Source: Streptomyces sp. NBC_00775
GTDB taxonomy: Bacteria > Actinomycetota > Actinomycetes > Streptomycetales > Streptomycetaceae
Reading direction: 5' to 3'
DNA length: 64,000 nt
Assembly: GCF_036347135.1 (NCBI RefSeq)
Contig: NZ_CP108938.1
Location: 8,370,001-8,434,000 of the forward strand
Positions 8,787 to 49,985 of the stretch are shown in pieces. A program made the translations under genes and the position numbers. Under the pieces are notes generated by a model, which did not search any database, was not told the DNA's origin, and worked only from the letters and a program-made list of their open reading frames with translations. Each line of letters opens with the position of its first letter. Position 1 is the stretch's first letter.

Positions 8787-9707
8787 ATGGCCGTGCTGTC
8801 GACCGAGGTGACCGAGGCGCTCCCGACCGTCCCGGCTGCCACGAAGAGCGCGGCCACGAAGAGCGCGGCCACGAAGAGCGCGGCCACGAAGAGCGCGGCC
8901 ACGAAGAGCGCGGCCACGAAGAGCGCGGCCACGGAGACTGCGCCCCTGGAGACCGCGGCCGTGGGGTTCCCACCCTCCCTCGTCCGGCGCCGCCCCCTTC
9001 GCCCCCTCCTGCCCACCGCCCTCGCCCTCCTCCTGGCAGCCCCCCTGCTCGCGGCGGCCCACCAGGCCCGCACCGCCCCCTACGGAGACCGCCTCACCGC
9101 CCACACCCTCCACGCGCGCGTGGAGCACGCGACGCGACCCTCGCTGCGTACGGCAGGGGCCACCGTCGAGGCGTACGACGCACAGACCGGGCGCCCCCGG
9201 TGGACGTACACGCGGGAGGGCCGGCGCCCGCTCGGCGTGCTCCCCGCGCGCGGGGACGCGATCGCGCTCTGGGACGACGGACTGGTCACCGCCACCGTGC
9301 GCGGCGACGGCAGCGCGGTGCGCTGGCACCGGGCCCTTCCCGGGGCCGCACCCTGGCTCGCCGCCCACGGGGGAGCGGGCGTGCTGCGGGCCCTCGGCCC
9401 CCGCATGCTCGCCGTCGTCACCCCGCAGCGCGTCGCCGCGTACCGCATCGCCGACGGCGACCTGCGCTGGCTGCTGCCCGCCCGCCCCGGCTGCGCCTTC
9501 GTGCCCGCGCGCGCGATGCGTGCCCGCGCGGCGCTGCTGATCGCGCAGCCCTGCGCCGCCACCGACAGCTGGACCGGCGAGATCATCGCCGTGGACGACC
9601 TGGGCAGGATCACCCCGGAGCGCGCGCCGCTGGACAATGAGCGACGGGGCGAGCGTCACAGTCTCGAACGCGCGCACACCGGAAAAGTGGTTGCACGGCC
9701 CCGTTAG
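8787..9707 (+). CDS. Membrane-anchored PQQ-like beta-propeller protein with expanded AATKS repeat
   Basis: A 306-residue protein starting at an ATG with an excellent AAGGGGGGCGAG ribosome site. The cytoplasmic N-terminus holds six exact AATKS repeats plus a degenerate seventh, encoded by 15-bp tandem units. A single hydrophobic helix ([17 protein letters not shown]) follows. The external part has PQQ/WD-like blades such as [19 protein letters not shown] and [19 protein letters not shown]. The last ~20 residues are polar and end just before the -10 element of the next transcription unit. It resembles outer-wall propeller scaffolds lacking enzyme residues; function unknown. Confidence 0.82.
8838..8942 (+). 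repeat. 15-bp tandem repeat (six perfect copies plus one degenerate)
   Basis: The unit GCCACGAAGAGCGCG is repeated exactly from 8838 to 8927, followed by a diverged copy at 8928-8942. The period is a multiple of three, so copy-number change keeps the frame. Perfect identity of all six copies implies recent expansion by slippage or unequal recombination. Confidence 0.97.
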
Positions 9708-9740
9708 ACTTGGCCCATGGCCATTCTCCTCGCGCATTAG
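9705..9740 (+). promoter_or_regulatory. Leaderless-type promoter and seven-codon leader ORF before ABC-F gene
   Basis: A TAGACT -10 hexamer (9705-9710) is followed after six bases by ATG at 9717, the spacing expected for a leaderless transcript. The ATG opens a short frame, MAILLAH, ending with TAG at 9738-9740. The ABC-F gene begins 58 bp later with its own GGAG site. In between, GACGG/CCGTC and GGCGGG/CCCGCC can form alternative, mutually exclusive stems. Translational attenuation is a plausible inference; no -35 box is convincing. Confidence 0.5.
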
Positions 9741-9798
9741 ACGGCGGGAACGTCCTCAGCCGTCCACCCCGCCACCCACCCCGCCCTGGAGTCTGTCC

Positions 9799-11397
9799 GT
9801 GATCTCCGCCTCCGGTATCGAGCTGCGCGCCGGCGCCCGTCTCCTCATCGAGTCCGCCACCTTCCGTATCGCCAAGGGCGACCGCATCGGTCTGGTCGGC
9901 CGCAATGGCGCGGGCAAGACGACGCTCACCAAGGTCCTCGCAGGTGAGGGCGTCCCTGCCGCCGGCAATGTCGCCCGCTCCGGCGAGGTCGGCTACCTGC
10001 CGCAGGACCCGCGCACCGGCGACCTCGACATACTCGCCGGTGACCGCATCCTTTCCGCGCGCGGCCTGGACACCCTGATCCGCAAGATGCGCGAGAACGA
10101 GCAGCGCATCGCCAACGGCTCGGGCGCCACCCGCGAGAAGGCCATGCGGCAGTACGAGCGCCAGGAGACCGAGTTCCTCACCAAGGGCGGATACTCCGCC
10201 GAGGCCGAGGCCGCCACCATCGCCGCCGCGCTCAACCTGCCGGACCGCGTGCTCGGCCAGCCCCTGCACACGCTCTCCGGTGGTCAGCGCCGCCGTATCG
10301 AGCTGGCCCGCATCCTGTTCTCGGATGCGGACACCCTGCTGCTCGACGAGCCGACGAACCACCTCGACGCCGACTCGATCGTGTGGCTGCGCGACTATCT
10401 GAAGACGTACCGCGGCGGCTTCATCGTGATCTCCCACGACGTCGACCTCGTGGAGACGGTCGTCAACAAGGTCTTCTATCTGGACGCCAACCGCGCCCAG
10501 ATCGACGTCTACAACATGGGCTGGAAGCTCTACCAGCAGCAGCGCGAGGCCGACGAGAAGCGCCGCAAGCGCGAGCGGCAGAACGCCGAGAAGAAGGCCG
10601 CCGCGCTGCACTCGCAGGCCGACAAGATGCGCGCCAAGGCCACCAAGACGGTCGCCGCGCAGAACATGGCCAAGCGAGCCGACCGGCTGCTCGCCGGACT
10701 CGACGCGGTACGGGCCTCGGACAAGGTCGCCAAGCTGCGTTTCCCGGAGCCCGCGCCGTGCGGCAAGACCCCGCTCATGGCCGAGGGCCTGTCGAAGTCG
10801 TACGGCTCCCTGGAGATCTTCACCGACGTCGACCTGGCCATCGACAAGGGCTCACGCGTCGTGATCCTGGGCCTGAACGGTGCCGGTAAGACGACCCTCC
10901 TCAGGCTCCTCGGCGGCGTCGAGACGCCCGACACCGGCGAGGTCGTCGAGGGCCACGGCCTCAAGCTCGGCTACTACGCGCAGGAGCACGAGACCCTCGA
11001 CCCCGAGCGCACGGTTCTGGAGAACATGCGCTCCGCCGCCCCCGACCTGGACCTGGTCGAGGTCCGCAAGACGCTCGGCTCGTTCCTGTTCTCCGGCGAC
11101 GACGTCGACAAGCCGGCCGGGGTCCTCTCCGGCGGTGAGAAGACCCGTCTCGCGCTCGCGACCCTCGTGGTCTCCTCCGCGAACGTCCTCCTCCTCGACG
11201 AGCCGACGAACAACCTCGACCCGGCCTCCCGCGAGGAGATCCTCGGCGCGCTGCACACCTACAAGGGCGCCGTCGTCCTCGTCACCCACGACGAGGGCGC
11301 CGTCGAGGCGCTCGAACCCGAGCGGATCATTCTCCTGCCGGACGGCGTCGAGGACCTGTGGGGCGCCGACTACGCGGATCTGGTCGCGCTGGCATAA
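9799..11397 (+). CDS. ABC-F family ribosome-associated ATPase
   Basis: A 532-residue soluble protein with two ABC domains and no membrane segment, the ABC-F layout. The first domain has Walker A GRNGAGKTT, signature LSGGQRRR and Walker B TLLLDEPTNHLD; the second has GLNGAGKTT, LSGGEKTRLALATL and VLLLDEPTNNLD. Between them (about residues 245-315) is the basic, helical P-site tRNA interaction motif (EADEKRRKRERQNAEKKAAALHSQADK region). ABC-F proteins act in the ribosomal E site to relieve stalling or antibiotic inhibition. The GTG at 9799 follows CTGGAG with a 7-nt gap. An upstream heptapeptide frame may regulate it. Whether it is a housekeeping or resistance factor cannot be read here. Confidence 0.94.
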   Translation: MISASGIELRAGARLLIESATFRIAKGDRIGLVGRNGAGKTTLTKVLAGEGVPAAGNVARSGEVGYLPQDPRTGDLDILAGDRILSARGLDTLIRKMRENEQRIANGSGATREKAMRQYERQETEFLTKGGYSAEAEAATIAAALNLPDRVLGQPLHTLSGGQRRRIELARILFSDADTLLLDEPTNHLDADSIVWLRDYLKTYRGGFIVISHDVDLVETVVNKVFYLDANRAQIDVYNMGWKLYQQQREADEKRRKRERQNAEKKAAALHSQADKMRAKATKTVAAQNMAKRADRLLAGLDAVRASDKVAKLRFPEPAPCGKTPLMAEGLSKSYGSLEIFTDVDLAIDKGSRVVILGLNGAGKTTLLRLLGGVETPDTGEVVEGHGLKLGYYAQEHETLDPERTVLENMRSAAPDLDLVEVRKTLGSFLFSGDDVDKPAGVLSGGEKTRLALATLVVSSANVLLLDEPTNNLDPASREEILGALHTYKGAVVLVTHDEGAVEALEPERIILLPDGVEDLWGADYADLVALA

Positions 11398-11431
11398 ATC
11401 CCCACCTGCCCCCGCGCTGTCAGCGGGGCGT

Positions 11432-11499
11432 GATCGAATGACTGATCCACTGCGTATGGATCATTCGGCCGATCCGTGATCCATCATCTGTGTGAGATC
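11432..11499 (+). promoter_or_regulatory. Cluster of six GATC sites upstream of gbn
   Basis: GATC occurs at 11432, 11444, 11459, 11471, 11478 and 11496, six sites in 68 bp, with one more at 11726 and one in the terminator loop after gbn (12039). The downstream gene encodes the GATC-binding nucleoid protein Gbn, so autoregulatory binding is a natural inference. Spacings of 12, 15, 12, 7 and 18 bp do not form a regular helix-turn series. Confidence 0.6.
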
Positions 11500-11533
11500 T
11501 CCTCGTACCGAGGTGTGTCCTACATCGATTTCG

Positions 11534-11570
11534 CGGCCGAGCCCTTTATTCCCAAGGGCTCGGCCGTTTT
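11534..11570 (+). terminator. Strong intrinsic terminator between the ABC-F gene and gbn
   Basis: CGGCCGAGCCC (11534-11544) pairs perfectly with GGGCTCGGCCG (11556-11566) and is followed by TTTTG. It lies 137 bp after the ABC-F stop, beyond the GATC cluster, so it may end either the ABC-F transcript or a short RNA started within the cluster. The remaining gap to 11767 holds only the gbn start region. Confidence 0.85.
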
Positions 11571-11767
11571 GCGTCGCTGACCAGGTACTTCGTGGAAGAA
11601 CCCGTTCGGCCGTACGGACGCGGGCAGCCGGAACCTCGGATTCCACTCGTGGGGACGGGCTCCTGTCGTCAAAACCTTGTCTTACGGACCTTGCCGAATG
11701 GGTGGCCATGAGGCCCAGGAGGGGTGATCATGAGAGTCCAGAGCGCACTTCCCATGAGGAGGCACGG

Positions 11768-11989: not shown

Positions 11990-12020
11990 GGCCGGGCGTC
12001 CCCATCGGCTTCGGTGGTGG

Positions 12021-12052
12021 CCACCCGGTCGGTCGCGTGATCGACCGGGTGG
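12021..12052 (+). terminator. Hairpin terminator after gbn
   Basis: CCACCCGGTCG (12021-12031) pairs perfectly with CGACCGGGTGG (12042-12052) across a 10-nt loop, which itself ends in a GATC. A short TTAC follows. It lies 32 bp after the gbn stop codon. Confidence 0.75.
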
Positions 12053-12135
12053 TTACTGTGCAGTCACTTAGGTGTGTCCCTCATGTTCCGCATGGGGTAC
12101 GCATCTGATCCGACCGCACCCATCGGAGGCGCCCC

Positions 12136-20281: not shown

Positions 20282-21280
20282 TCACTTCCCCGACGCCGGC
20301 TCCACATCCCGCAGCAGCTGGCCGAACGCCGCCTCGTCGATCACCGGCGTCCCGAACTGCTTGGCCTTGACCACCTTCGACGTGCTGGAGTCCGGGTCGT
20401 TGGTGACGAGCAGGCTGGTGAGCCGGGACAGGCTGGTCGCGACATGCAGCCCGGCCTCGACGGCACGGTCCTCCAGCAGCTCGCGGTCGACGGACGTGTC
20501 GCCGGAGAACGCGATGCGCATGCCCTGCTTGAGCGGTTTGCCCTCTTCGTACCGCCCTGGGTTGGGATAGGGGCATGCGGGGCGTTTGCGTGAGGGTCGC
20601 CAACTCCCGGACGGGTAGCCGCCTGACGAGTAACCGCCGGACTGCCGCCCGATGCGAGGCGCCGCGGCGCTGTCGGACCACTCCTTGAGCGGCCGGCACT
20701 CAAGGAGCGGCAGCCGCACACCCTTGCTCACGGCGGCCCGCAGGCTCGGCCGGAACGCCTCGGCCAGCACGCGCGCGTCGTCCAGCGCGTGGTGCGCCCG
20801 CTGCTGCACGACCCCGAAGTGCGCGGCCAGCGACTCCAGCTTGTGGTTGGGCAGCGGAAGCCCCAGCTCCTTGGAGAGCGCGATGGTGCACAGCCGCTGC
20901 CGCACCGGTGCCTCGCGCTCCGCGCGCGCGTACTCCCGCGCGATCATCGACCAGTCGAAGACCGCGTTGTGCGCGACGAGCACGCGGCCGTCGAGCCGGG
21001 TGGCGAACTCCTCGGCGATGTCCTGGAAGAGCGGGGCGCCTTCGAGCATGTCGCTCGTCAGGCCGTGGATCCACACCGGGCCCGGGTCCCGCTCCGGGTT
21101 GACCATCGTGTACCAGTGGTCCTCGACCTCGCCGCGCGCGTCCAGCCGGTAGACGGCGGCCGAGATTATCCGGTCGTCGCGGGCCAGGCCTGTGGTCTCC
21201 ACGTCGACGACCGCGTACCCCTGCGGATACGCGGCCGGCCAGGAGGCTGGGGACGCTGCGGTCGTCAGGTCTTCGAGCAT
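20282..21280 (-). CDS. DnaQ-type DEDDh 3'-5' exonuclease with C-terminal BRCT domain
   Basis: A 332-residue protein. The exonuclease half shows ExoI VVDVETTGL, ExoII LVAHNAVFDWSM and ExoIII HHALDDARVL, the DEDDh set of catalytic residues. A Gly/Ser/Pro-rich linker (about residues 205-245) leads to a BRCT-like domain (KQGMRIAFSGDTSVDRELLEDRAVEAGLHVATSLSRLTSLLVTNDP). Exonuclease-BRCT fusions occur in actinobacteria, and the same kind of BRCT is found at the end of ligases. A role in DNA repair or proofreading is inferred. The ATG at 21280 is the first good start. Confidence 0.92.
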   Translation of the reverse strand: MLEDLTTAASPASWPAAYPQGYAVVDVETTGLARDDRIISAAVYRLDARGEVEDHWYTMVNPERDPGPVWIHGLTSDMLEGAPLFQDIAEEFATRLDGRVLVAHNAVFDWSMIAREYARAEREAPVRQRLCTIALSKELGLPLPNHKLESLAAHFGVVQQRAHHALDDARVLAEAFRPSLRAAVSKGVRLPLLECRPLKEWSDSAAAPRIGRQSGGYSSGGYPSGSWRPSRKRPACPYPNPGRYEEGKPLKQGMRIAFSGDTSVDRELLEDRAVEAGLHVATSLSRLTSLLVTNDPDSSTSKVVKAKQFGTPVIDEAAFGQLLRDVEPASGK

Positions 21281-21526
21281 GGTCACTGAGGATACGGGCC
21301 ACGACTGACAGTCCGGGCCCCGGCTTCCCGGAACGCGGTCCTCCAAAGGCCCACGACATGGCCACGCGCGCGTGTGCCGCACAATCGGGCCGGACCGCCC
21401 CTGAGTTGACGCCGCGCCGCCCGCCAGTACGGCGCGGGCCCCGGGTGACGGCCCGGCAGCACCGCCGCGAGCCGTCGGTCCAGCGCGTGACGAAAGGGGG
21501 CGGGGCCGGCGCGCGGGCGGCCCGGG

Positions 21527-22144
21527 TCAGCGCCCGAGCAGGGCCTCCACGAGCGCTCGTACGGAGAGGGCGAACAGCTTCTCCTGGTCGACCGGGCCGG
21601 CCAGCGCCCGGGCCAGGCCCGGGTCGTCCTCCGCGGTCTGGGTGTCCCACAGCTCTTCCTCGGCGGGCTGCTGTACGGGCGCGCGCTCACGGTTGCGCTC
21701 GACGAGGACGAAGCCGACGACCTGGAACTGCACGGCCCGAACGACCTCGGCCGCATGGGTGCCGCGCAGACCCGCCGCGTGCACCTCGTGCACCAGGGCC
21801 TGCTGCGCGGGCAGGAACATCCGCTCGGTCAGTCCGCGTTCGTGCACCATCGCGACGAGGTGCGGATGCTCGCGCAGCTGCCGGCGCAGGGCGCGGGCCA
21901 CCGACGTGATGCGCTGGGCCGGCGTGCGCCCGGTGGGGCGGATCACGCCGAGGTCGGCGACCGTGCGCTCGACGAGCGCGTCGAGGAGCGACTCCCGATT
22001 GCCGACGTGCCAGTAGATCGAGGTGACCGCGGTGCCCAGCTCGGCGGCGAGCTTGCGCATCGTCAGGGCGTCCGGGCCGTGCTGCTTCACCAGGTGCGCG
22101 GCGCTGTCGAGGATCGCGTCGCGGGTGAGTGCCGTCCTCGTCAT
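21527..22144 (-). CDS. TetR/AcrR family transcriptional regulator
   Basis: A 205-residue regulator. The N-terminal helix-turn-helix is clear: AILDSAAHLVKQHGPDALTMRKLAAELGTAVTSIYWHVGNRESLLDAL (TetR_N). The C-terminal ligand domain resembles the TetR_C_33-like group. It is divergent from the decarboxylase operon, with a 124-bp shared gap containing a 17-bp palindrome at 22204-22220. That arrangement predicts repression of the operon and possibly of itself until a small ligand binds. The ligand is unknown. Confidence 0.93.
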   Translation of the reverse strand: MTRTALTRDAILDSAAHLVKQHGPDALTMRKLAAELGTAVTSIYWHVGNRESLLDALVERTVADLGVIRPTGRTPAQRITSVARALRRQLREHPHLVAMVHERGLTERMFLPAQQALVHEVHAAGLRGTHAAEVVRAVQFQVVGFVLVERNRERAPVQQPAEEELWDTQTAEDDPGLARALAGPVDQEKLFALSVRALVEALLGR

Positions 22145-22268: not shown

Positions 22269-23066
22269 ATGGCACGAGTGAGGTACGGCGCACGAACCGA
22301 GGCGGAGATCGCCGCCGCGCGCACCGCGAGCTCCAAACTCCCCGACATCTGGTCCACCGGAGTGGTGGCCGTCTGGGAGAGCGATCCGGACGCGGTCGCG
22401 GCGGTCCTGCCGCCCCCGCTGAAACCCACCGGGCGGCCCCTGGTGCGAGTGAACATCAGCAAGGTCGAACTGCCCGGATACCCGCTGGGCGCGGGCTCGT
22501 TCGCCGTCGCAGCCGCGCACGACGGCGTCGAGGGCTGGTATCCGCTCGTCATGCCGATGACCCACGAACGGGCCCTCATCGGCGGCCGCGAGGTCTTCGG
22601 GGAACCCAAGAAGCTCGGCGAGGTGACGGTCGAGCGTGACGGTCTCGTCGTACGCGCCGCGCTCGCCCGGCACGGCATCGCGTTCGTCGAGGTACGCGGC
22701 GCGGTGAGCGGCGTCCTGCCGCTTCCCGAGCCCGTCCAGAAGACCGACTTCTACTTCAAGTTCCTTCCCGCGGTGGACGGTTCGGGGTTCGACGCCGACC
22801 CCGTCCTCGTGCACTGTCTGCGCAACGAGAAGGTGCGCAAACTGGAGCGCGTCACCGGAGACGTCGTCCTGCGCGAGTCGATGTACGACCCGGTCGCCGA
22901 CCTCCCCGTACGCCGGCTCGTCGAGATCACCATCGGTGAGAAGACCACCGACCAGAAGGGCAAGGTCGTCGAACGGGTCAGCGCCCAGGCCCTCTTGCCG
23001 TACATCCACCAGCGCTACGACGACCCCCAGCAGATCCTCGACGGGCCGCCCGAGGGGAGCCTGTGA
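22269..23066 (+). CDS. Acetoacetate decarboxylase family protein
   Basis: A 265-residue protein. The central segment ERALIGGREVFGEPKKLGEV matches the family Schiff-base lysine region (E-x-x-G-x-P-K-K). True acetoacetate decarboxylases make acetone and CO2, but many family members act on other beta-keto acids or catalyse aldol/dehydration steps. The ATG follows GAAGGGCGGTACGAC. Its stop overlaps the start of the next gene (TGATG), and it heads a four-gene operon with an SDR and two amidohydrolases, which points to catabolism of a carboxylated or cyclic substrate. Confidence 0.88.
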   Translation: MARVRYGARTEAEIAAARTASSKLPDIWSTGVVAVWESDPDAVAAVLPPPLKPTGRPLVRVNISKVELPGYPLGAGSFAVAAAHDGVEGWYPLVMPMTHERALIGGREVFGEPKKLGEVTVERDGLVVRAALARHGIAFVEVRGAVSGVLPLPEPVQKTDFYFKFLPAVDGSGFDADPVLVHCLRNEKVRKLERVTGDVVLRESMYDPVADLPVRRLVEITIGEKTTDQKGKVVERVSAQALLPYIHQRYDDPQQILDGPPEGSL

Positions 23067-23950
23067 TGGATCTCCGCGCGGGGCAGGTCGCCGTCGTCAC
23101 CGGCGCGGCGAGCGGGATCGGGCTCGCGATGGCGCGGCGGTTCGCGGCGGACGGTCTGAAGGTGGTCCTCGCGGACGTCGAGCAGGGCGCCCTGGAGAAG
23201 GCCGCCGCCGAGCTGCGGGAGGACGGCGCCGACGTGCACGCGCGCGTGGTGGACGTCGGGGACCGCGAGGCGGTGTTCGCGCTGGCTTCGGAGGCGTACG
23301 AGAAGTACGGGGCCGTGCACGTCCTGTGCAACAACGCCGGTGTCGGCTCCGGTGCCGAGGGCCGCATGTGGGAGCACGATCCGAACGACTGGAAGTGGGC
23401 CTTCGCCGTCAACGTCTGGGGCGTCTTCCACGGCATCCAGGCGTTCGTCCCGCGGATGATCGCCCAGGGAGAGCCGGGCCACGTCGTCAACACCTCGTCC
23501 GGCGACGGCGGGATCGCCCCGCTGCCCACCGCCTCCGTCTACGCCGTCACCAAGGCGGCCGTCGTGACGATGACCGAGTCGCTGTACGCCCACCTGAAGG
23601 CGGAGCACGCGCGCGTGGGCGCGTCCGTGCTCTTCCCGGGGCCCCACATGCTCCGTACGGGCCTGTGGGAGTCGCACCGCAACCGGCCACCGCGCTACGC
23701 GAAACAGAAGCCCAGGAAGACCCCCTACCGCAGCCTCGACCAGTGGGAGGCCGCGATGAAGGAGGCGGGCCACGAGGTGCGGTTCACACCCGTCGAAGAG
23801 GTCGCCGACCTCGTCGCCGAGGGGATCCGCCAAGGCCGCTTCTGGCTGCTGCCCGAGAGCGAGCACAGCGACCGGCAGATCCGGGCGCGTTCGCAGTCGA
23901 TGCTCGACCGCGCCGACCCGTCGTACCTAGAGAACTTCATCCTGGACTGA
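23066..23950 (+). CDS. SDR family oxidoreductase in the decarboxylase operon
   Basis: A 294-residue classical short-chain dehydrogenase with TGAASGIGLAMA, NNAG and a catalytic Ser plus YAVTK set (NTSSGDGGIAPLPTASVYAVTKAAV). The C-terminal ~60 residues (KPRKTPYRSLDQWEAAMKEAGH and after) are longer than the minimal family and probably form the substrate lid. The ATG start at 23066 overlaps the preceding stop. It should oxidise or reduce an alcohol/ketone intermediate of the same pathway; substrate not evident. Confidence 0.93.
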   Translation: MDLRAGQVAVVTGAASGIGLAMARRFAADGLKVVLADVEQGALEKAAAELREDGADVHARVVDVGDREAVFALASEAYEKYGAVHVLCNNAGVGSGAEGRMWEHDPNDWKWAFAVNVWGVFHGIQAFVPRMIAQGEPGHVVNTSSGDGGIAPLPTASVYAVTKAAVVTMTESLYAHLKAEHARVGASVLFPGPHMLRTGLWESHRNRPPRYAKQKPRKTPYRSLDQWEAAMKEAGHEVRFTPVEEVADLVAEGIRQGRFWLLPESEHSDRQIRARSQSMLDRADPSYLENFILD

Positions 23951-23960: not shown

Positions 23961-25244
23961 ATGACCGACCAGGACCCCTACCTCATCATCTCCTCCGACT
24001 GCCACGCCGGTCTCCCCACCGAGGAGTACCGGCCCTATCTTGACCCTCGTTTCCACCGGGACTTCGACGAGTTCCTCGCGGGCCGCGACCGGCGCCGCGA
24101 GGAGATGACGCGGCTCGGTATCCGCAACGAGGCGTTCGCGAACAAGTGGTTCCAGGACAACGAGGAAGGCCTGCGCGGCGGCTGGGACACCGCGCAGCGT
24201 CTCAAGGAGCTGGACGGCGACGGTGTGGCGGCCGAGGTCGTCTTCCCGGACGCGGACGCCGTGGACAGCCAGACCGCCGCCCCCTTCGGTGTGGGCCTCG
24301 GCCTCTCGGGGGACCAGGACCCGGAGCTCGGCATGGCCGGCGCGCAGGCACACAACCGCTGGCTGGCCGACTTCGTCTCCGAGAACCCCGAACGGCACTG
24401 CGGGGTGGCCCTGTTGCCCATCACGGCGGAGGTGTCGCGCGTGGTGGCGGAGGTGTACCGCGCCAAGGAGTCGGGCCTGGGCGCGCTGATGATCCCCTCC
24501 ATGTGGGTCGACAAGGAGCCGTACCACGACCGCCGTTACGACCCCGTGTGGGCGGCGGCCGCCGAGTGCGGGATGCCCGTGGTCACCCACTCGGGCGCGG
24601 CACCGCGCCACGAATACGGCGACCACTTGGGAATCTATGTCTCCGAAGTCACCTGGTGGCCCGCCCGTCCCCTCTGGTTCCTGCTGTGGTCGGGCGTCTT
24701 CGAACGGCACCCGGGTCTCAAGTTCGGTGTCGCGGAGTCGGGTTGCTGGTGGCTGCCGAACCTCCTCTGGTTCATGGACCGCCTCTACCTGGGAGCGCAC
24801 GGCGGCAAGAAGCTGTCGCCCTTCGCGGAACTGAAGCGGCCCCCGCACGAGTACCTGGACCGGCAGCTCTTCATCTGCGCGACGAACACCAAGCGCCGCG
24901 AACTGGCCCAGCGGTACGAGATCGGCATCGACAACATCCTCTGGGGCAGCGACTTCCCGCACCCTGAGGGCACCTGGCCCGACACGCGCGCGTGGCTGGC
25001 GAAAACCTTCCACGACATCCCCGTCGGGGAGACGCGCCGGATGCTCGGCCTGGCGGCGGCGGAGGTCTTCGGGTTCGACGTCGAGAAACTGACCCCGCTC
25101 GCCCGGCGCATCGGTCCGACCCCCGCCGACCTCGGCCAGAGCGACGACCAGACGGCCGTGGAGGCGTCCTGGGCCCGCTCGCGCGAGGTGGGCCGGCACT
25201 GGCTGACGGACCACGACTTCCCAACCCTGGGGGTGACCTCATGA
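23961..25244 (+). CDS. Amidohydrolase family protein (PF04909 type), first of a pair
   Basis: A 427-residue TIM-barrel metal-dependent hydrolase or decarboxylase. Metal-binding landmarks are ISSDCHAG (D-x-H), VVTHSGAAPRHEYG and the C-terminal WGSDFPHPEGTWP with the catalytic Asp. Members of this family include ACMSD-like decarboxylases and ring hydrolases. It begins with an ATG after GAGGGGTGTGCG, 10 bp from the SDR stop, and overlaps the next gene by 4 bp (ATGA). Its similarity to the next product suggests successive or alternative steps on one substrate class. Confidence 0.92.
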   Translation: MTDQDPYLIISSDCHAGLPTEEYRPYLDPRFHRDFDEFLAGRDRRREEMTRLGIRNEAFANKWFQDNEEGLRGGWDTAQRLKELDGDGVAAEVVFPDADAVDSQTAAPFGVGLGLSGDQDPELGMAGAQAHNRWLADFVSENPERHCGVALLPITAEVSRVVAEVYRAKESGLGALMIPSMWVDKEPYHDRRYDPVWAAAAECGMPVVTHSGAAPRHEYGDHLGIYVSEVTWWPARPLWFLLWSGVFERHPGLKFGVAESGCWWLPNLLWFMDRLYLGAHGGKKLSPFAELKRPPHEYLDRQLFICATNTKRRELAQRYEIGIDNILWGSDFPHPEGTWPDTRAWLAKTFHDIPVGETRRMLGLAAAEVFGFDVEKLTPLARRIGPTPADLGQSDDQTAVEASWARSREVGRHWLTDHDFPTLGVTS

Positions 25245-26557: not shown

Positions 26558-27268
26558 GTGACGCAACCGACGCACGACGAGGCCCACGGAGGAGCGCTCG
26601 GCTCGCGGCTGAACTGGCTGCGGGCCGCCGTCCTGGGCGCCAACGACGGCATCATCTCCACCGCCGGCCTCGTCGTCGGGGTGGCGGGCGCCACGGACGA
26701 ACGCTCCGCACTGCTCACGGCGGGGCTCGCCGGACTGCTGGCCGGGTCGATGTCGATGGCGGCGGGCGAGTACGTGTCGGTCTCCACCCAGCGGGACTCG
26801 GAGCTGGCCGCCCTGGCCCTGGAGAAGCGCGAGCTCACGGAGCAGCCGGAGGCCGAACTGGAGGAGCTGACCGAGCTGTTGGAGCAGCGCGGCCTGACCC
26901 GGGACGTGGCCCGGGAGGCGGCGGAACAGCTCACCGAGCGGGACGCCCTGCGCGCCCACGCGCGCGTGGAGCTCGGTATCGACCCCGACGACCTCACCAA
27001 CCCCTGGCACGCGGCATGGGCGAGCTTCCTCGCGTTCACCGCGGGGGCGCTGCTGCCGCTGCTGGCCATGGTGCTGCCCCCGGCGGACTGGCGCCTCGGA
27101 GTCACCGTCGTATCGGTACTGGCCGCCCTCGTCCTCACCGGCTGGAGCAGCGCCCGCCTGGGAGGGGCGAACGTGGGCCGGGCCGTCGTGCGGAACGTGG
27201 CGGGCGGCGCGCTGGCGATGGCGGTGACGTACGCGGCGGGAGCCCTGCTGGGAGCGGCGGGCGTGTGA
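26558..27268 (+). CDS. VIT1/CCC1 family iron/manganese transporter
   Basis: A 236-residue integral membrane protein. The first helix LNWLRAAVLGANDGIISTAGLVVGVAGA is the family signature (G-A-N-D-G). A long charged cytoplasmic loop (about residues 95-150, EQPEAELEELTELLEQRGL) lies between helices 2 and 3 and contains acidic residues that could bind metal. The last three helices are in the C-terminal 90 residues. VIT proteins export or store Fe2+/Mn2+. GTG at 26558 is the start, which lacks a strong ribosome site. Confidence 0.92.
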   Translation: MTQPTHDEAHGGALGSRLNWLRAAVLGANDGIISTAGLVVGVAGATDERSALLTAGLAGLLAGSMSMAAGEYVSVSTQRDSELAALALEKRELTEQPEAELEELTELLEQRGLTRDVAREAAEQLTERDALRAHARVELGIDPDDLTNPWHAAWASFLAFTAGALLPLLAMVLPPADWRLGVTVVSVLAALVLTGWSSARLGGANVGRAVVRNVAGGALAMAVTYAAGALLGAAGV

Positions 27269-28277: not shown

Positions 28278-28281
<4 letters not shown>

Positions 28282-28949
28282 ACCCACGCCTCGCGCGCGT
28301 GCTGCTCGTCTCCTTCGGCCTCGCGGTGGTCGTGGACCTCGTGTCCCTGGGCGCGGGGTTCGATCTCGGGCACCGGATCGCCAAGCCGCTCCTGATGCCC
28401 CTGCTCGCCGCCCACGCGGGCGTACGCGGCGGCCCGCGGCTCCTGGTCGCCGCGCTGCTCTGCGGCTGGGGCGGCGACGTGCTGCTCCTGTCCGACGCCG
28501 ACCCGGCCTTCCTCGTGGGGATGGCGTCCTTCGCGGCGGGGCACATGTGTTACCTCGTCCTTTTCCGGCGAACGGCACGCGCGCGTGGAGCCCTGCTCGC
28601 AGGTGGGTACGCCGTCGCCCTCGTCGCCACCGTCACGCTTCTGTGGCCCGACCTGCCCGCCGATCTCCGCGTCCCCGTCGCGGGCTACAGCCTGCTCCTG
28701 ACCGCGATGGCGTACGGGGCCACCCGGCTCGGGCTCGTCACGGGTGTCGGCGGCGCCCTGTTCATGCTCTCGGACACGCTCATCGCCACCGGGGTCGCCG
28801 AGTGGCCGCAGCTCCCGAGCCCGGACTTCTGGATCATGCTCACGTACGCCGCCGCCCAGTATCTGCTGGTGCGCGGTGTGCTGGGCACCCTCGGCGCGCG
28901 GCCCGCGCCCGCGGCGGCGTACGGTGAGATGCGCTCAACCACCCCCTGA
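28278..28949 (+). CDS. Lysoplasmalogenase (YhhN/TMEM86 family)
   Basis: A 223-residue protein with about seven transmembrane helices. The conserved aspartate regions appear as LLCGWGGDVLLLSDADPAFLVGMASFAAGHMCYL and VGGALFMLSDTLIATG, typical of the family. The enzyme cleaves the vinyl-ether bond of lysoplasmalogens. The GTG start overlaps the preceding stop. Paired with the desaturase-like gene it suggests ether-lipid metabolism, but no plasmalogen synthesis gene is nearby. Confidence 0.9.
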
Positions 28950-42629: not shown

Positions 42630-44024
42630 TTATACGCCCTGACTGACAGAGCTCATATTGAAGTCCGGCACCCGCAGCGCGGGCATCGCAGCCCTAGTGA
42701 ACCAGTCGCTCCACTCCCTGGGCAGCGTCTTTTCCGTCCGCCCCGCCTCCGTCGCCCGCCCCAGCAGGTCCACCGGCGACTCGTTGAACCGGAAGTTGTT
42801 CACCTCGCCGACGACCTGGCCGTTCTCGACGAGGTAGACGCCGTCCCGGGTCAGCCCGGTCAGCAGCAGCGTCGCCGGGTCGACCTCGCGGATGTACCAG
42901 AGGCAGGTCAGCAGCAGACCGCGCTCGGTGGCGGCGACCATCTCCTCCAGGGAGCGGTCCTCGCCGCCGTCCAGGATCAGGTTCCCGATGGTCGGGGCGA
43001 CGGGCAGCCCGGTGAGGCCCGCGCTGTGCCGGGTGGTGGACAGATGGGTCAGCGTGCCCTCACGGACCCAGTCCGTCGCGGACAGCGACAGCCCGTTGTC
43101 GAACACGGACGCGTCGTCGCCGGAGGAGTGCGCGAGAACGAAGGGGGCGGTCTCCAGGCCCGGCTCGTTCGGGTCGCTGCGCAGCGTCAGCGGCAGCTCG
43201 GTGAGCTTCTCACCGACGCGGGTACCGCCACCGGGCTTGCTGAAGACCGTCCGGCCCTCGGCCGCGTCCCGGGCGGCCGCCGACCACATCTGGTAGATCA
43301 GCAGGTCCGCGACGGCGGTCGGCGGCAGCAGCGTCTCATAGCGCCCCGCGGGCAGGTCGATGCGCCGCTCGGCCCAGCCGAGCCGTACGGCCAGCTCGGC
43401 GTCCAGCGCTGCCGGATCGACGTCCTTGAAGTCCCGTGTCGACCGCCCCGCCCACGCCGACCGCGTACGGTCCGGCGACTTGGCGTTGAGCTCCAGCGTG
43501 CCCTTGGGCTGGTCGTGCCGCAGACGCAGCCCCGTCGACGTACCGAGATAGCTGGAGACGAGTTCGTGGTTGGCGAACCCGTACAGCTCGCGGCCGCCCG
43601 CACGCGCGCGTGCGAACGATTCGCCGAGCGCCGGCGCGAAGTCCGCGAAGACGGCGGACGAGGTCTCGGCGGGCGCGTCCGTGAAGTCGGGGGACTCCGG
43701 TACGCCCGCGACGAGCGGCTGGGCATCCTCGGCCGGACCCGCGCCGCGGGCCGCCGCCTCCGCGGCCCGCACCAGCGGCTCCAGCTCGTCGGCGGTCACG
43801 GCCGAGCGCGAGACGACCCCGGACGCGGTCCCCTCACGGCCGTCGACGGTGGCGATCACGGTCAGCGTGCGCCCGCGCGTGACCCCGTTCGTGGTCAGCG
43901 CGTTGCCCGCCCAGCGCAGGTTGGCGGTCGACTCCTCGTCGGCGATCACCACACAACCGTCGGCGCGGGACAGTTCGAGGGCGCGCTCGACGACCTCGTG
44001 CGGCTTGTTCGTACGCGCGCTCAT
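42630..44024 (-). CDS. tldE: TldE/PmbA family metalloprotease subunit
   Basis: A 464-residue protein that forms the inactive partner of TldD in the TldD-TldE protease (microcin processing, antitoxin CcdA degradation in E. coli). It lacks the HExxxH metal motif, as expected. [27 protein letters not shown] and [22 protein letters not shown] are family blocks. Its start (ATG at 44024) overlaps the tldD stop by four bases, so they are cotranslated. Homologues are common in Streptomyces; physiological target unknown. Confidence 0.92.
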
Positions 44025-45544
44025 CGACCGGCCTCCTGCGTGGTGTTCAGAATGTTGACGCCCTTGAAGAGGGCCGACGGGCAGCCGTGCGAGACCGCCG
44101 CGACCTGGCCCGGCTGGGCCTTGCCGCAGTTGAAGGCACCGCCCAGGACATACGTCTGCGGGCCGCCCACCGCGGCCATCGAACCCCAGAAGTCGGTGGT
44201 CGTCGCCTGGTACGCGACATCGCGCAGCTGGCCGGTGATCCGGCCGTTCTCGATCTTGAAGAACCGCTGCCCGGTGAACTGGAAGTTGTAGCGCTGCATG
44301 TCGATGGACCAGGACCGGTCACCGACGACATAGATGCCGCGGTCGACGCTCCCGATGAGATCCTCCGTCGACATCCCGGCCGGATCCGGCTGCAGGGACA
44401 CATTGGCCATGCGCTGCACGGGCACATGGCCGGGGGAGTCGGCGTACGCGCATCCGTTGGACCGCTCGAAGCCGGTCAGCCTGGCGATGCGCCGGTCCAG
44501 CTGGTACCCGACGAGCGTCCCGTCCTTGACGAGGTCCCAGGACTGCCCGGCCACCCCCTCGTCGTCGAATCCGATCGTCGCGAGGCCGTGCTCGGCGGTG
44601 CGGTCGCCGGTGACGTTCATCAGCTCGGATCCGTACCGCAGCTTGCCCAGCTGGTCGAAGGTGGCGAAGGAGGTGCCGGCGTACGCGGCCTCGTAGCCCA
44701 GCGCGCGGTCCAGCTCGGTGGCGTGGCCGATGGACTCGTGGATGGTCAGCCACAGGTTCGACGGGTCGACGACGAGGTCGTACACCCCCGCCTCGACGCT
44801 CGGCGCCCGCATCTTCTCGGCGAGCAGCTCCGGGATCCGCTCCAGCTCGGACTCCCAGTCCCAGCCGGTGCCCGTCAGGTACTCCCAGCCGCGCCCCACC
44901 GGCGGCGCGATCGTCCTCATGGAGTCGAACTCGCCGCTGGACTCGTCGACGGCGACGGCGGTGAGCTGCGGGTGCAGCCGCACGCGCTGCTGTGTGGTCA
45001 CGGTCCCGGCGGTGTCGGCATAGAACTTGTTCTCGTGCACGGTCAGCAGCGAGGCGTCGACGTGATTGACGCCGTCGGCCGCCAGCAGCCGCGCGCTCCA
45101 GTCCGCGAGCAGCCCGGCCTTCTCCTCGGCCGGCACGGAGAAGGGATCGATGTCGTACGACGAGATCCATGTCTTCTCGGCGTGCACCGGCTCGTCCGCC
45201 AGCTCCACGCGCTCGTCCGACCCGGCCGCCTTGATCACCTGCGCCGACAGCTTCGCCATCGCCACGGCCTGCGACGCCACCTTCGCGGCGGCGTCCATCG
45301 TCAGATCCACACCCGACGCGAACCCCCAGGTCCCGCCGTGCACCACCCGCACCGCGTACCCCAGGTCCGTGGTGTCCGACGACCCGGCGGGCTTGGCGTC
45401 CCGCAGCCGCAAGGCCGCACTGCGCACCCGCTCGAACCGGAAGTCCGCATGGTCGGCGCCCAGCGCACGCGCGCGTGCGAGCGCGGCGTCGGCCAGGGCG
45501 CGCAGCGGTAGCGCCGTGAAGGCTTCGTCGATGGAATGAGGCAC
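44021..45544 (-). CDS. tldD: TldD family metalloprotease
   Basis: A 507-residue zinc protease subunit. The metal motif HESIGHATELDRALGYEAAYAG (HExxxH) is at about residue 266, with a Cys-containing NGCAYADSPGHVPVQRM and the C-terminal GAFNCGKAQPGQ. TldD-TldE form a heterodimer cleaving unfolded peptides. Residues SSDTTDLGYAVRVVHGGTWGFAS form the N-terminal domain. It begins with ATG at 45544, 248 bp from the divergent fabG. This gap contains a GAATCCGACAG/CTGTCGG inverted repeat (45665-45698). Confidence 0.94.
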   Translation of the reverse strand: MPHSIDEAFTALPLRALADAALARARALGADHADFRFERVRSAALRLRDAKPAGSSDTTDLGYAVRVVHGGTWGFASGVDLTMDAAAKVASQAVAMAKLSAQVIKAAGSDERVELADEPVHAEKTWISSYDIDPFSVPAEEKAGLLADWSARLLAADGVNHVDASLLTVHENKFYADTAGTVTTQQRVRLHPQLTAVAVDESSGEFDSMRTIAPPVGRGWEYLTGTGWDWESELERIPELLAEKMRAPSVEAGVYDLVVDPSNLWLTIHESIGHATELDRALGYEAAYAGTSFATFDQLGKLRYGSELMNVTGDRTAEHGLATIGFDDEGVAGQSWDLVKDGTLVGYQLDRRIARLTGFERSNGCAYADSPGHVPVQRMANVSLQPDPAGMSTEDLIGSVDRGIYVVGDRSWSIDMQRYNFQFTGQRFFKIENGRITGQLRDVAYQATTTDFWGSMAAVGGPQTYVLGGAFNCGKAQPGQVAAVSHGCPSALFKGVNILNTTQEAGR

Positions 45545-46502: not shown

Positions 46503-47270
46503 ATGAGCGGAATTCTTGCGGGCAAGCGCATCCTGATCACCGGTGTGCTGACGGAGGCCTCCATCGCCTTCCACACCGCCAAGCTGGCCCAGGAGCAGGG
46601 CGCGGAGATCATCCTGACCGCGTTCCCGCGGCCCACGCTGACCGAGCGCATCGCCAAGAAGCTCCCCAAGCCCACCAAGGTCATCGAGCTCGACGTCACC
46701 AACGACGAGCACCTCGCCCGCCTGGCCGACATCGTCGGCGAGGAGCTGGGCGGCCTCGACGGAGTCGTGCACTCCATCGGCTTCGCGCCGCAGGACGCGC
46801 TCGGCGGCAACTTCCTGAACACGCCGTTCGAGTCGGTTGCCACGGCCATGCACGTCTCGGCGTTCTCCCTGAAGTCGCTGACCATGGCCTGCCTGCCGCT
46901 GATGCAGAACGGCGGCTCGGTCGTCGGCCTCACCTTCGACGCGCAGTACGCCTGGCCGCAGTACGACTGGATGGGCCCGGCCAAGGCCGCCCTGGAGGCC
47001 ACCAGCCGCTACATGGCCCGCGACCTGGGCAAGCAGAACGTCCGCTGCAACCTCATCTCCGCGGGCCCGCTCGGCTCGATGGCCGCCAAGTCCATCCCGG
47101 GCTTCGGCGAGCTCGCCGCCGTGTGGGACTCCCGCGCGCCCCTGGAGTGGGACCTCAAGGACCCGGAGCCGGCCGGCCGCGGTGTCGTCGCCCTGCTGAG
47201 CGACTGGTTCCCGAAGACCACGGGCGAGATCATCCACGTGGACGGCGGTCTGCACGCGATCGGCGCGTAA
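46503..47270 (+). CDS. fabI: Enoyl-ACP reductase FabI (InhA type)
   Basis: A 255-residue NADH-dependent enoyl-ACP reductase. The InhA pattern is seen: LITGVLTEASIAFHTAKLAQEQGAEIILT for NADH and YAWPQYDWMGPAKAALEATSRYMARDLG with YxxMxxxK catalytic residues. It completes the elongation cycle after FabG. The ATG follows the fabG stop by 5 bp. It is the probable target class of triclosan or isoniazid-like inhibitors. A hairpin at 47322 ends the operon. Confidence 0.97.
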   Translation: MSGILAGKRILITGVLTEASIAFHTAKLAQEQGAEIILTAFPRPTLTERIAKKLPKPTKVIELDVTNDEHLARLADIVGEELGGLDGVVHSIGFAPQDALGGNFLNTPFESVATAMHVSAFSLKSLTMACLPLMQNGGSVVGLTFDAQYAWPQYDWMGPAKAALEATSRYMARDLGKQNVRCNLISAGPLGSMAAKSIPGFGELAAVWDSRAPLEWDLKDPEPAGRGVVALLSDWFPKTTGEIIHVDGGLHAIGA

Positions 47271-47321
47271 AGGCTTACGCGAGCGCTTACGTACGCGGGC
47301 CCTCCGGCTCTCGTACGTCGA

Positions 47322-47362
47322 TGACGCCCCGTTTCCCGCAGCGCGCGGGGAGCGGGGCGTCA
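47322..47362 (+). terminator. Terminator after fabG-fabI
   Basis: TGACGCCCCG (47322-47331) pairs with CGGGGCGTCA (47353-47362), and the loop holds an inner CCCGC/GCGGG stem. It lies 52 bp after the fabI stop. Confidence 0.75.
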
Positions 47363-47466
47363 CCCATTGGGCCCACCGGCCGGGCGGAGGAGGTGGGCAA
47401 CTGCGCACTCTGGAGTAAGCGTTCCGCACGCGTTCCCTCCCCAGCACGGCCGAGGAGGTCTCCCTT

Positions 47467-47811
47467 GTGCGCCTGTTCCCCCGCTTCGCCCCGGTGCTGG
47501 CCGCCGTCGCTCTCGTGATGGCCCTGCCGTACGACGCCACGCCGCACGCGCGCGTGGAGGCCGAAAAACCCGCTGTTCCGCAACTTTTCGGAGCCGAGTG
47601 CCGCACCACCGTCACCGGCTCCCACGTGGTCGCGTACTGCCACAACCCGTACCCGGAGACCGACCGCGTCAGCCTGCACGTCGAGTGCGACCGCTGGTGG
47701 GACATCGACAGCGACGGCGTGCCGGTCGACGCGGAACCCGCCATGACGGTGCGGCTCACCGGACGATGCTGGGAGGAGATCCGCTCGGTCTGGGTCAGCC
47801 ACCAGAAGTGA
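47467..47811 (+). CDS. Small secreted Cys-containing protein
   Basis: A 114-residue protein. An N-terminal signal peptide (MRLFPRFAPVLAAVALVMALP, start GTG after GAGGTCTCCCTT) precedes a mature part of about 85 residues with four Cys (AECRT, AYCHN, VECDRWW, GRCWE), consistent with two disulfides. No catalytic motif. It ends in a duplicated sequence (47792-47842). Function unknown; conserved in Streptomyces as far as I recall. Confidence 0.82.
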   Translation: MRLFPRFAPVLAAVALVMALPYDATPHARVEAEKPAVPQLFGAECRTTVTGSHVVAYCHNPYPETDRVSLHVECDRWWDIDSDGVPVDAEPAMTVRLTGRCWEEIRSVWVSHQK

Positions 47812-47842
47812 TGTCCGGGGTCAGCCACCAGAAGTGATGTCC
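47792..47842. repeat. 25-bp tandem duplication at the end of a secreted-protein gene
   Basis: A 25-nt segment (47792-47816), which includes the gene's last codons and its TGA, is repeated exactly at 47818-47842, one base apart. The second copy ends four bases before the stop of the convergent GntR gene, so the duplication spaces the two 3' ends. Confidence 0.9.
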
Positions 47843-47846
47843 CGGG

Positions 47847-48551
47847 TCAGCCGGAAGCGCCGTCCGGGTCCTTCGGGCCGAGCCGTCCCGGACGGCACAG
47901 GAACGGATAGCCCGCGGCCTCCGTGGCGGCCGCCTCCGCGTCGCCCGAGCGGATCGCGTCGACGAGCCGGGCGTGGTCCATGTACGTCTCCGGCGTCAGC
48001 TTCTCGCCGACGTCCTCGCGCAGCCAGTCGCGCAGCACCTCGCCGAGATCCGCGTACATCGCCGTCATGACGTCATTGTGGGACGCGGCCACCACCGCCA
48101 GATGAAAGGTCGCGTCGGCGGTCACGAAGGCCTCCGCGTCGCCCGACTCCCACGCCTCCTCGCGGCGTACGAGGAGCGCGTCCAGCTGCTTGAGATCGCG
48201 CTCGGTGCGGCGCTCGGCTGCCAGCTCGGCGGCGCTCGACTCCAGCGTGGAGCGCAGCTCGGCGATGTGCCGCGGGTCGGCGTCCGCGAAGCGGCGGTGC
48301 ATCACACCCGCCAGCTCGCTGGTCGCCACGACATAGGTGCCGGAGCCCTGGCGGATGTCGAGCAGGCCGTTGTGGGCCAGCGCGCGCACCGCCTCGCGGA
48401 CCGTGTTGCGGGCGACGCCGAGTTGCTCGACCAGCTCCGGCTCGGTGGGGATGCGGGAGCCCACCGGCCACTCGCCCGAGGTGATCTGGTTCCGCAGCTC
48501 GGCGATGACCTGCTCGGACAGCGCCGAACGGCGGGGGTGGCTCAGCGGCAT
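47847..48551 (-). CDS. FCD-domain GntR family transcriptional regulator
   Basis: A 234-residue FadR-subfamily regulator. The winged-helix domain is seen in LSEQVIAELRNQITSGEWPVGSRIPTEPELVEQLGVARNTVREAVRALAHNGLLDIRQGSGTYV; the FCD ligand domain has the helical pattern with metal-binding His and Asp (HLAVVAASHND, YMDHARLVDAIRSGD). FCD regulators often sense carboxylic acids. It is divergent from the exporter gene, with a palindrome (48634-48648) between them. Confidence 0.93.
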   Translation of the reverse strand: MPLSHPRRSALSEQVIAELRNQITSGEWPVGSRIPTEPELVEQLGVARNTVREAVRALAHNGLLDIRQGSGTYVVATSELAGVMHRRFADADPRHIAELRSTLESSAAELAAERRTERDLKQLDALLVRREEAWESGDAEAFVTADATFHLAVVAASHNDVMTAMYADLGEVLRDWLREDVGEKLTPETYMDHARLVDAIRSGDAEAAATEAAGYPFLCRPGRLGPKDPDGASG

Positions 48552-48633
48552 GGCGGTCCTTCATACGGGCCCGGGGTGGTCGGTCGCGCCGGGCCGGAGA
48601 TTCCGGAGATTAACGCAACGGGATTGGACAGCC

Positions 48634-48648
48634 AATCATCCCATGATT
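48634..48648. promoter_or_regulatory. Candidate GntR operator
   Basis: AATCAT-CCC-ATGATT is a perfect palindrome with 6-bp arms between the GntR gene (start 48551) and the MFS gene. A related ATGAT word follows at 48651. It is AT-rich for the genome and overlaps the expected exporter promoter. Confidence 0.65.
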
Positions 48649-48662
48649 CTATGATGGGCGGC

Positions 48663-49985
48663 ATGACTGGCGAGAAGACCCGGACGATGACGTCCACGCC
48701 GATACGCACCTCCGCAGGCACGAAGTCCGAGAACGAGACACCCGCCACGCGCGCGTGGACGACGCGTCTGGTGATCGTCGGCATCGTCCTCACCGCCCTC
48801 AACCTGCGCCCCGCGATCACCAGCCTCGGCGCCCTCCTCGAAGAGGTGCGTGGCGGGCTCGGCATGAGCGGCAGCGTCGCCGGACTGCTCACCTCCGTAC
48901 CGCCGCTCTGCTTCGCCGTCTTCGGCGTCATGGCACCGCGGCTCGCCCGCCGCTTCGGACCCGGCGCGGTCGTCTGCGCGGGCATGGTCGCCATCACGGC
49001 GGGCCTGGCGATCCGGCCGTACGCCGGGAACACGGCCGGCTTCCTGGCCGCCAGCGCGCTCGCCCTCATGGGCATCGCCGTCAGCAACGTCCTGATGCCG
49101 GTGATCGTCAAGCGCTGGTTCCCGGACAGGGTCGGCTCCATGACCGGCCTGTACTCGATGGCCCTCGCGCTCGGCACCTCGACCGCGGCCGCGGTGACCG
49201 TGCCCATGACCGACGTCCTGGGCGGCAGCTGGCAGTCCGGGCTCGCGGTGTGGGCGGGGCTCGCGGCGGCGGCCATAGTCCCGTGGATCGCGCTCGTACG
49301 CGCGCGGGGCGCCGAATCCGCGAGCGGCGCCACCGCCCGGCGTACCGACGCCGGGACCCGTACGCCCGCCCGGCACGAGCCCGACGAGTTCCGCATCACC
49401 CGCAGCCGTACCGCCTGGGCACTCGCCGTCTTCTTCGGACTCCAGGCCACCGCCGCGTACATCACGATGGGCTGGATGGCGCAGATCTTCCGCGACGCGG
49501 GCGTCTCGGCCGGCACCGCGGGACTGCTCCTCGCCGTCACGATGGTGATGGGCGTGCCGCTGGCCTTCGTCATCCCGCGCCTGGCCACGCGGCTGCCCCA
49601 CCAGGGGCCGATCGTGGTCGCACTCGGCGCCTGCGGACTCGCCGGATACGCCGGCCTTTACGTTGCCCCCGCGGGCGGCGCCTGGGCCTGGGCCCTGCTG
49701 CTCGGCGTCTCCAACTGCGCCTTCCCGCTGGCCCTCACCATGGTCGGCATGCGGGCCAGGACCGGCGCGGGTGTCGCCAAGCTCTCGGCGTTCGCCCAGA
49801 GCGCCGGCTATCTGCTCTCGATCCCGGGCCCGCTGCTGGTGGGCGTCCTCTACCAGCACAGCGGCGGCTGGGGCCTGCCGCTCGCCCTCATGGCGGGACT
49901 GATGGTCCCGCAGATCGCGGTGGGCATCCTGGCGGGCCGCAACCGCACGGTGGAGGACGAGGCGGCTCGCCGGCCTCAGCCCTGA
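48663..49985 (+). CDS. MFS transporter, CynX/NimT type
   Basis: A 440-residue protein with 12 helices. The first helix TRLVIVGIVLTALNLRPAITSLGALLEEV is characteristic of the CynX/NimT group, which exports 2-nitroimidazole or imports cyanate. A charged central loop (ARGAESASGATARRTDAGTRTPARHEPDEF) separates the halves. ATG at 48651, 48654, 48663 and 48690 are all in frame; I take 48663 provisionally, as none has a strong ribosome site. Regulation by the divergent GntR gene is likely. Confidence 0.9.
   Translation: MTGEKTRTMTSTPIRTSAGTKSENETPATRAWTTRLVIVGIVLTALNLRPAITSLGALLEEVRGGLGMSGSVAGLLTSVPPLCFAVFGVMAPRLARRFGPGAVVCAGMVAITAGLAIRPYAGNTAGFLAASALALMGIAVSNVLMPVIVKRWFPDRVGSMTGLYSMALALGTSTAAAVTVPMTDVLGGSWQSGLAVWAGLAAAAIVPWIALVRARGAESASGATARRTDAGTRTPARHEPDEFRITRSRTAWALAVFFGLQATAAYITMGWMAQIFRDAGVSAGTAGLLLAVTMVMGVPLAFVIPRLATRLPHQGPIVVALGACGLAGYAGLYVAPAGGAWAWALLLGVSNCAFPLALTMVGMRARTGAGVAKLSAFAQSAGYLLSIPGPLLVGVLYQHSGGWGLPLALMAGLMVPQIAVGILAGRNRTVEDEAARRPQP

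Follow-up and report, generated by a model that had tools for sequence, protein, structure and literature searches.

MatP/matS and other macrodomain address sites follow a common arrangement, in which a regional set of sites is bound by an architectural protein. Noc of B. subtilis recognizes a 14-bp palindrome with about 70 sites per chromosome, and SlmA of E. coli has palindromic sites numbering 24–52 per chromosome; both site sets are under-represented near the replication terminus, according to the sections of PMC4726725 that deal with them. In the part of PMC4852455 concerned with septum placement, Streptomyces is reported to have no homologue of Noc or SlmA; whether negative control of septum position exists there is given as not known, and another such control is suggested to have evolved. 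HIP1 occurs at 300–2700 per Mb in most cyanobacteria and HIP sequences generally at 1000–2000 per Mb, and every HIP genome has a predicted methylase for part of the HIP sequence, as stated in the passages of PMC4390886 on abundance and methylation.

Here we describe CACGCGCGCGTG, a 12-bp palindrome iterated in a 64-kb window (the whole stretch of DNA that was analysed) of Streptomyces sp. NBC_00775. It forms a real, selected, lineage-limited set of DNA sites. Our tentative reading, and one that could well be right, is that CACGCGCGCGTG is the site of a putative dimeric, sequence-specific DNA-binding protein that marks chromosome addresses in much of Streptomyces.

Over-representation beyond composition and codon use

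In the window there are 11 exact copies of the palindrome, all of them where the original prediction had placed them, against a mean of 0.08 and a maximum of 1 in 100 dinucleotide shuffles; with one mismatch allowed there are 17 copies against 2.87 in the shuffles. The single contig of 11,096,612 bases, in which the window takes up 8370001-8434000, has 157 exact copies, or 14 per Mb genome-wide compared with 172 per Mb in the window, which is about 12 times denser. A genome-wide count had been set as a check on the prediction, and 157 copies exceed the expectation under every null: 14.4, 3.5 and 1.0 for Markov models of order 1, 3 and 5, and 5.7 when codons were shuffled within genes. To train the Markov and codon-shuffle nulls, 40 random loci of 20 kb were used, all outside those earlier fetched for their sites; they contain 4 sites, and both nulls may be slightly low. 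Codon shuffling applied to site-rich loci of the same genome gave 4.9 copies against 91 coding copies present, and in 80 loci of relatives 10.4 against 171; because site-rich loci were selected, the value of 5.7 from the random loci is the fairer one.

Like the HIP sequences, then, the palindrome is over-represented beyond composition and codon use. The earlier claim that codon bias does not explain it holds, both on the shuffled codons and on the use of all three reading frames. Z-DNA or simple alternation was rejected as an explanation: the reversed word is equally purine-pyrimidine alternating, yet without enrichment (6 copies genome-wide against 157). Selection at the peptide level was rejected on the three frames, in which the exact codons are biased.

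Copies within the window

Ten of the 11 copies lie in called genes, five in phase 0, three in phase 1 and two in phase 2, and one is intergenic, in agreement with the original prediction; the clusters that it described at 21–29 kb and 43–49 kb are real. The first copy (9111..9122) is in the HARV frame of ORF 8787-9707 (+), an ORF that also contains a 15-bp tandem repeat at 8838-8937 (GCCACGAAGAGCGCG, 6.7 copies, 98% matches). The intergenic copy (21363..21374) is found between an exonuclease gene (20282-21286, minus strand) and a TetR gene (21527-22144, minus strand). Two copies in HARV frame, at 23237..23248 and 23606..23617, lie in the SDR gene 23066-23950 (+), followed by one in TRAW frame at 24983..24994 in the amidohydrolase gene 23961-25244 (+) and one in HARV frame at 26957..26968 in the VIT-family gene 26558-27268 (+). 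All four are matched at the corresponding position in Streptomyces sp. WAC 01529; the next, in the ARAR frame of the YhhN-family gene 28278-28949 (+) at 28576..28587, is not common to that genome.

In the second cluster, the TldE/PmbA-like gene 42630-44024 (-) and the TldD-like gene 44021-45544 (-) have their copies at 43601..43612 and 45466..45477, both with the codons GCA CGC GCG CGT, the latter copy being absent from WAC 01529. They are followed by a copy in HARV frame in the small ORF 47467-47811 (+), at 47545..47556, and by one in TRAW frame in the hypervariable N-terminus of the MFS gene 48651-49985 (+), at 48746..48757. A one-mismatch copy at 51739..51750, in the SerB-like gene 51226-52437 (-), is probably a decayed site, because relatives keep an exact site in the SerB-like gene in 39 of 65 loci. 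Farther downstream, a 27-bp repeat at 57881-58003 would encode, on the minus strand, a lysine/alanine-rich stretch of gene 57508-58257, judged by eye to be perhaps a basic tail.

Selection on the DNA across species

Recurrence of the sites in sister genomes had been set as a further check, and they do recur there. Eighty Streptomyces loci around TldD contain 180 exact copies against one of the reversed word. Five genes hold 167 of the 180 (TldE 40, TldD 26, SerB-like 39, MFS 41 and the small ORF 21), and the other 17 reference genes at these loci have none; of the remaining copies, four fall in genes that have no reference and nine fall outside the gene calls, six of these nine being, by eye, the MFS N-terminal site. 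Taken by gene, one exact copy is present in TldE/PmbA in 40 of the 80 loci and in TldD in 26 of the 80, while the small ORF has at least one in 20 of 60 relatives; of the MFS copies, our own gene included, 33 occupy the N-terminal column and 8 other parts of the gene. Among genomes with at least 100 copies, the site is present in the SerB-like gene in 15/20, in MFS in 16/22, in the small ORF in 10/22, in TldD in 13/24 and in TldE in 14/24. The figures in the same order are 10/15, 2/15, 1/12, 0/16 and 3/16 for genomes with 32–99 copies, and 0/6, 0/7, 0/7, 0/8 and 0/8 for those with at most 31.

The 12-mer is favoured as DNA, regardless of frame or gene function, which upholds the view of an iterated palindrome favoured at the DNA level. 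In TldE and TldD, where the context is Ala-Arg-Ala-Arg, the site requires GCA and CGT, which make up 4.2% and 8.9% of their codons; GCA stands at the TldE site in 18 of 25 and at the TldD site in 16 of 25 (our genome plus genomes with at least 100 copies). The Ala-Arg-Ala-Arg codon contexts were drawn from loci chosen for sites, with random core loci as the control, and in the latter 3/4 HARV contexts are exact against 1/10 xRARx contexts. At the MFS N-terminus the adjoining residues vary freely and ACG CGC GCG TGG is kept, with 27 of 28 xTRA[WC] contexts exact. Sites kept in this way on the DNA level, in fast-changing protein sequence, are a constraint when such genes are recoded or moved. 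A shift of the TldE site position between species was considered and rejected, the apparent shifts being differences in gene length.

The comparison of our genome with WAC 01529 covered 148 reciprocal best pairs, 28 of them with a site in either. Fourteen of our 26 sites lie at the same aligned place in WAC 01529 (which has 24), a count that scores the MFS pair as not common, its N-terminus being misaligned, and for which sharing is favoured by both sets of loci having been picked near sites. Conserved A, V, R, G, P and T residues have the same codon with a frequency of 0.589, and four matching codons are therefore expected in about 12%. Individual sites turn over, being both gained and lost, because parsimony and third-codon changes are no fewer at site codons than at other codons of the same genes and the identity of the 12-mer within each gene ranks as moderate, not among the highest. 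What is unusual is the choice of codons that persist: the balance of gain and loss is shifted towards the motif. Eight amino-acid contexts that permit the motif were listed, and seven are filled in some species, from 2/7 and 25/68 up to 27/28 and 4/4; in the TyrS context (4 species) the motif is never present. Permissive contexts could be filled in this way by weak selection acting uniformly or by a repair drive.

Motif variants

The bases outside each end of CACGCGCGCGTG are C or G in about 95% of cases. In coding DNA, the single changes TACG.., CCCG.., CTCG.. and CGCG.. are still enriched 4.7–8 fold and CACGCGTGCGTG 10 fold, while GACG.., CACCCG.., CAGGCG.. and CACGCGGG.. are depleted 2–3 fold. 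Octamers containing CGTACG, such as CCGTACGG, occur in the loci of our genome at 2–4 times the codon-shuffled expectation (122 against 34).

Double changes of the outer pairs bear on an element that acts at the RNA level, in mRNA. Such an element would suit the bias towards gene bodies and 3' ends, since most sites are in transcribed DNA, within coding sequence or shortly after a stop, and the RNA could fold into a 4-bp hairpin around a CGCG loop (-2.2 kcal/mol). One hairpin-keeping change, CCCGCGCGCGGG, is indeed enriched (28 against 10.9 expected), but the other two of the three tested are depleted, GACGCGCGCGTC with 1 against 5.0 and CTCGCGCGCGAG with 3 against 10.8, and all three frames are in use. 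We consider an RNA element quite improbable.

Chromosome layout and gene context

All 157 site places were listed through three complementary searches and merged. They range over 1.18–10.18 Mb of the contig, leaving the first 1.1 Mb without a site against 15.6 expected and the last 0.9 Mb without a site against 12.7; between 8.0 and 9.6 Mb there are 60 against 22.6 expected. With the best ParB match, at 5.458 Mb, as a proxy for the origin, site counts by distance show no simple gradient. The empty ends may only mirror horizontally acquired arms; permissive contexts are exact in 0/7 cases in the arms against 4/14 in core loci, both small numbers. At short range, 52 of the 156 gaps are below 5 kb; 2000 uniform placements gave 13 on average and never more than 26. 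When each site was jittered by up to 100 kb, the 13 gaps below 600 bp compared with a mean of 2.4 and a maximum of 11, and the 26 gaps of 600–2500 bp with a mean of 7.5 and a maximum of 17.

Genes were called with a codon-score script. Among 112 sites, from the window and 40 fetched loci, 91 are in called genes (phases 49/31/11), spread evenly along gene length and encoding HARV, xRARx and xTRA[WC]. Eighteen sites fall in 12 intergenic regions. Seven of the regions are convergent (p = 0.0007; convergent regions hold 15% of bases), and nine of the 12 have a site at most 90 bp past a stop (p = 0.0004; 25% of positions), the nearest site being used in multi-site regions. Three non-genic sites judged coding by eye (L100:12118, L110:5302 and L110:5482; two regions called divergent) were left out; with them, there are 14 regions, three divergent and seven convergent, nine of the 14 having a site near a stop. 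The copies are clustered and missing from the chromosome ends, and most occupy gene bodies or stretches close to the 3' ends of genes.

Conventional sites of a global transcription factor (a repressor, roadblock or silencer) would need an unusual preference for gene bodies. The palindrome is dimer-like, clusters over neighbouring genes are common to different species, one gene has a site pair upstream and an ECF-type sigma gene an upstream array, all of which would fit such a factor. Divergent regions, however, account for one of the 12 intergenic regions and convergent ones for seven (two more called divergent were left out, as their sites look coding), and the coding sites are distributed evenly along genes. 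Nor do the site genes have a function in common: 78 of the 86 were scanned for Pfam families, no family is common to more than 4 of them, and a regulon with sites in the promoters of functionally related genes was not found. A transcription factor of this kind thus seems unlikely to us.

The 78 scanned site proteins include two with a match to UvrD helicase and two with one to PD-(D/E)XK nuclease. The four sites of a cluster at L103:6805-15303 extend over three genes, of which two are very long; judged by size, the long genes are AdnA/AdnB-like candidates. At L110:4406-5890, a MocR-like gene (its aminotransferase part called, its GntR-like part seen by eye) has two exact mid-region sites.

Intergenic arrays

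Two intergenic cases speak for a site that is wanted at a place, beyond what the amino acids permit. Downstream of the ORF at L106:10735-11847 there are 4, 2, 2 and 2 exact copies in our genome, G040, G024 and G032, respectively (at least 60% identity), and by eye three of these downstream stretches have no evident similarity; 23 more distant homologs of the ORF have no site nearby, although several are in carriers. In the second case, 8 of 30 MarR loci have an exact or one-mismatch copy at most 100 bp past the stop, at varying distances, the stops being placed by an open-frame rule, which did not work in a few of the loci; such matches occur at 0.02 per 600 bp in random core loci. The MarR downstream copies are all in genomes with at least 81 copies, and are present in 7/16 of those with at least 100 and 0/5 of those with at most 14. 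Together with the clustering and the gene-end preference, these two cases are better explained by a function at chosen regions than by uniform weak selection or a repair drive.

The intergenic region L105:9130-9624, flanked by a MarR gene and a gene for an ECF-type sigma factor, contains two exact and several degenerate copies. Near its end is a block of promoter-like look, CTTGACC...CATATGAGACCGGGT, which recurs in several species. Both neighbours of the arrays were rejected as the motif protein: the ORF next to the four-copy array is absent from most carriers, being matched in 26 of 100 genomes and not in G049, the richest of the 60 congeners, and the MarR beside the degenerate array is present in 61 of 61 genomes and so does not track the motif. 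A phage lead was likewise dropped. Only one viral contig was found in which two copies lie within 30 bp of each other (L211:9145-9180); it has TCACGCGCGCGTGA twice, between genes, and by eye its ORFs look like a prophage tail and reverse-transcriptase region.

Carrier genomes and candidate partners

Of 60 congeners, 25 have at least 30 copies (maximum 218), 7 have 5–29 and 28 have 0–4. Outside the genus, 39 other genomes have 0–5 copies each, and 287 actinobacteria, from 296 genomes drawn from the phylum, at most 7 each. The enrichment is limited to part of Streptomyces, that is, to many species but not all. Among 48 genomes reached via named loci, S. curacoi (183), S. antibioticus (179), S. 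melanogenes (80) and S. violaceorubidus (63) are carriers, while S. violascens (1), S. flavotricini (1) and S. laculatispora (0) have low counts. On a tree of five neighbouring genes, built with the site columns masked, these three low-count species adjoin carriers, and the MFS and SerB-like sites appear in distant branches. We read this as pointing to an old origin of the motif set with repeated loss.

Six of the 25 congeners with at least 30 copies (G008, G009, G016, G020, G024 and G049) have no match to the C5 methylase family PF00145, and the same six have none to the N6_N4 family PF01555; our own genome has one weak PF00145 match and none to PF01555. The six carry 63–218 copies and include the richest genome, G049 (218). 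Methylases of the C5 and N6_N4 families were rejected as the motif partner on these grounds, and the proposal of a methylase site is not supported by the two families tested. The original prediction had compared the palindrome to HIP1, and a HIP1-like motif driven by an orphan methylase or by methylation-linked mismatch repair would indeed be genome-wide, present in all frames and limited to a clade, with permissive amino-acid contexts often filled, as is seen here. The strong clustering, the six carriers and a density of 14 per Mb, against the 1000–2000 per Mb given in the cited part of the HIP literature, all argue against the analogy, and we find such a drive improbable.

A ParB paralog was also rejected: in a search for the ParB_N family in 36 congeners, matches did not track the motif and no extra paralog did so, G007 (166 copies) having one match. 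Neither the 12-mer, nor the inner 10-mer together with Streptomyces, was found in the open-licence PMC papers searched, and further searches of them gave no such site set. CACGCGCGCG does occur there, and in the one paper on Streptomyces that has it, it belongs to a sigma-E promoter sequence given in a list; CACGCGCG is found in papers that also mention Streptomyces.

Proposed function and comparison with known systems

Because all three frames are used, one of them through rare codons, the sites cluster, the chromosome ends are empty and the sites often recur at the same place in orthologs, we conclude that selection, or a drive, acts on the DNA. A Chi-like or other recombination or replication landmark would fit a DNA-level, GC-rich sequence in many copies outside promoters. 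For such a landmark, 157 copies in 11 Mb are sparse, clustering is unexpected and, as the motif is palindromic, direction would be lacking; we hold this to be very unlikely.

In the reading that we prefer, a dimeric protein marking chromosome addresses, the putative dimer would bind the double-stranded palindrome and would bind neighbouring sites together at distances of 0.03–2.5 kb. The sites would then be address marks for folding, segregation or septum protection, not ordinary operators, in a general layout resembling Noc/NBS, SlmA/SBS or MatP/matS. The suggestion of a nucleoid-protein site is plausible. A more specific version, in which a putative lineage-specific dimer bridges the clustered sites and leaves the ends free, as a chromosome-organising or nucleoid-occlusion system filling the role of Noc and SlmA, is possible but rather doubtful. 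If the nucleoid-occlusion reading were true, a pull-down with the 12-mer could open a direct entry to the control of septum position in Streptomyces. More generally, the palindrome is a precise 12-bp probe for a putative hidden DNA-binding system in the main antibiotic-producing genus.

With HIP1, the Streptomyces motif has in common that it is an iterated, clade-limited palindrome. It differs in being clustered, in having no link to the two methylase families tested (PF00145 and PF01555) and in being, at its 14 per Mb, roughly 100 times sparser, well short of HIP-class density as given in the cited passages. In contrast to MatP/matS, the sites extend beyond a single terminus domain. The likeness to the site sets of Noc and SlmA is one of functional analogy, not of membership. 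The Streptomyces sites are clustered and GC-rich, unlike those of Noc and SlmA, and the terminus depletion of the latter compares with the lack of any site in the outermost 1.1 and 0.9 Mb here, a lack that arm gene content could explain. In number they are comparable: the 157 palindromic sites of Streptomyces sp. NBC_00775 fall within the tens to low hundreds per chromosome that mark a site set of the Noc/SlmA kind.
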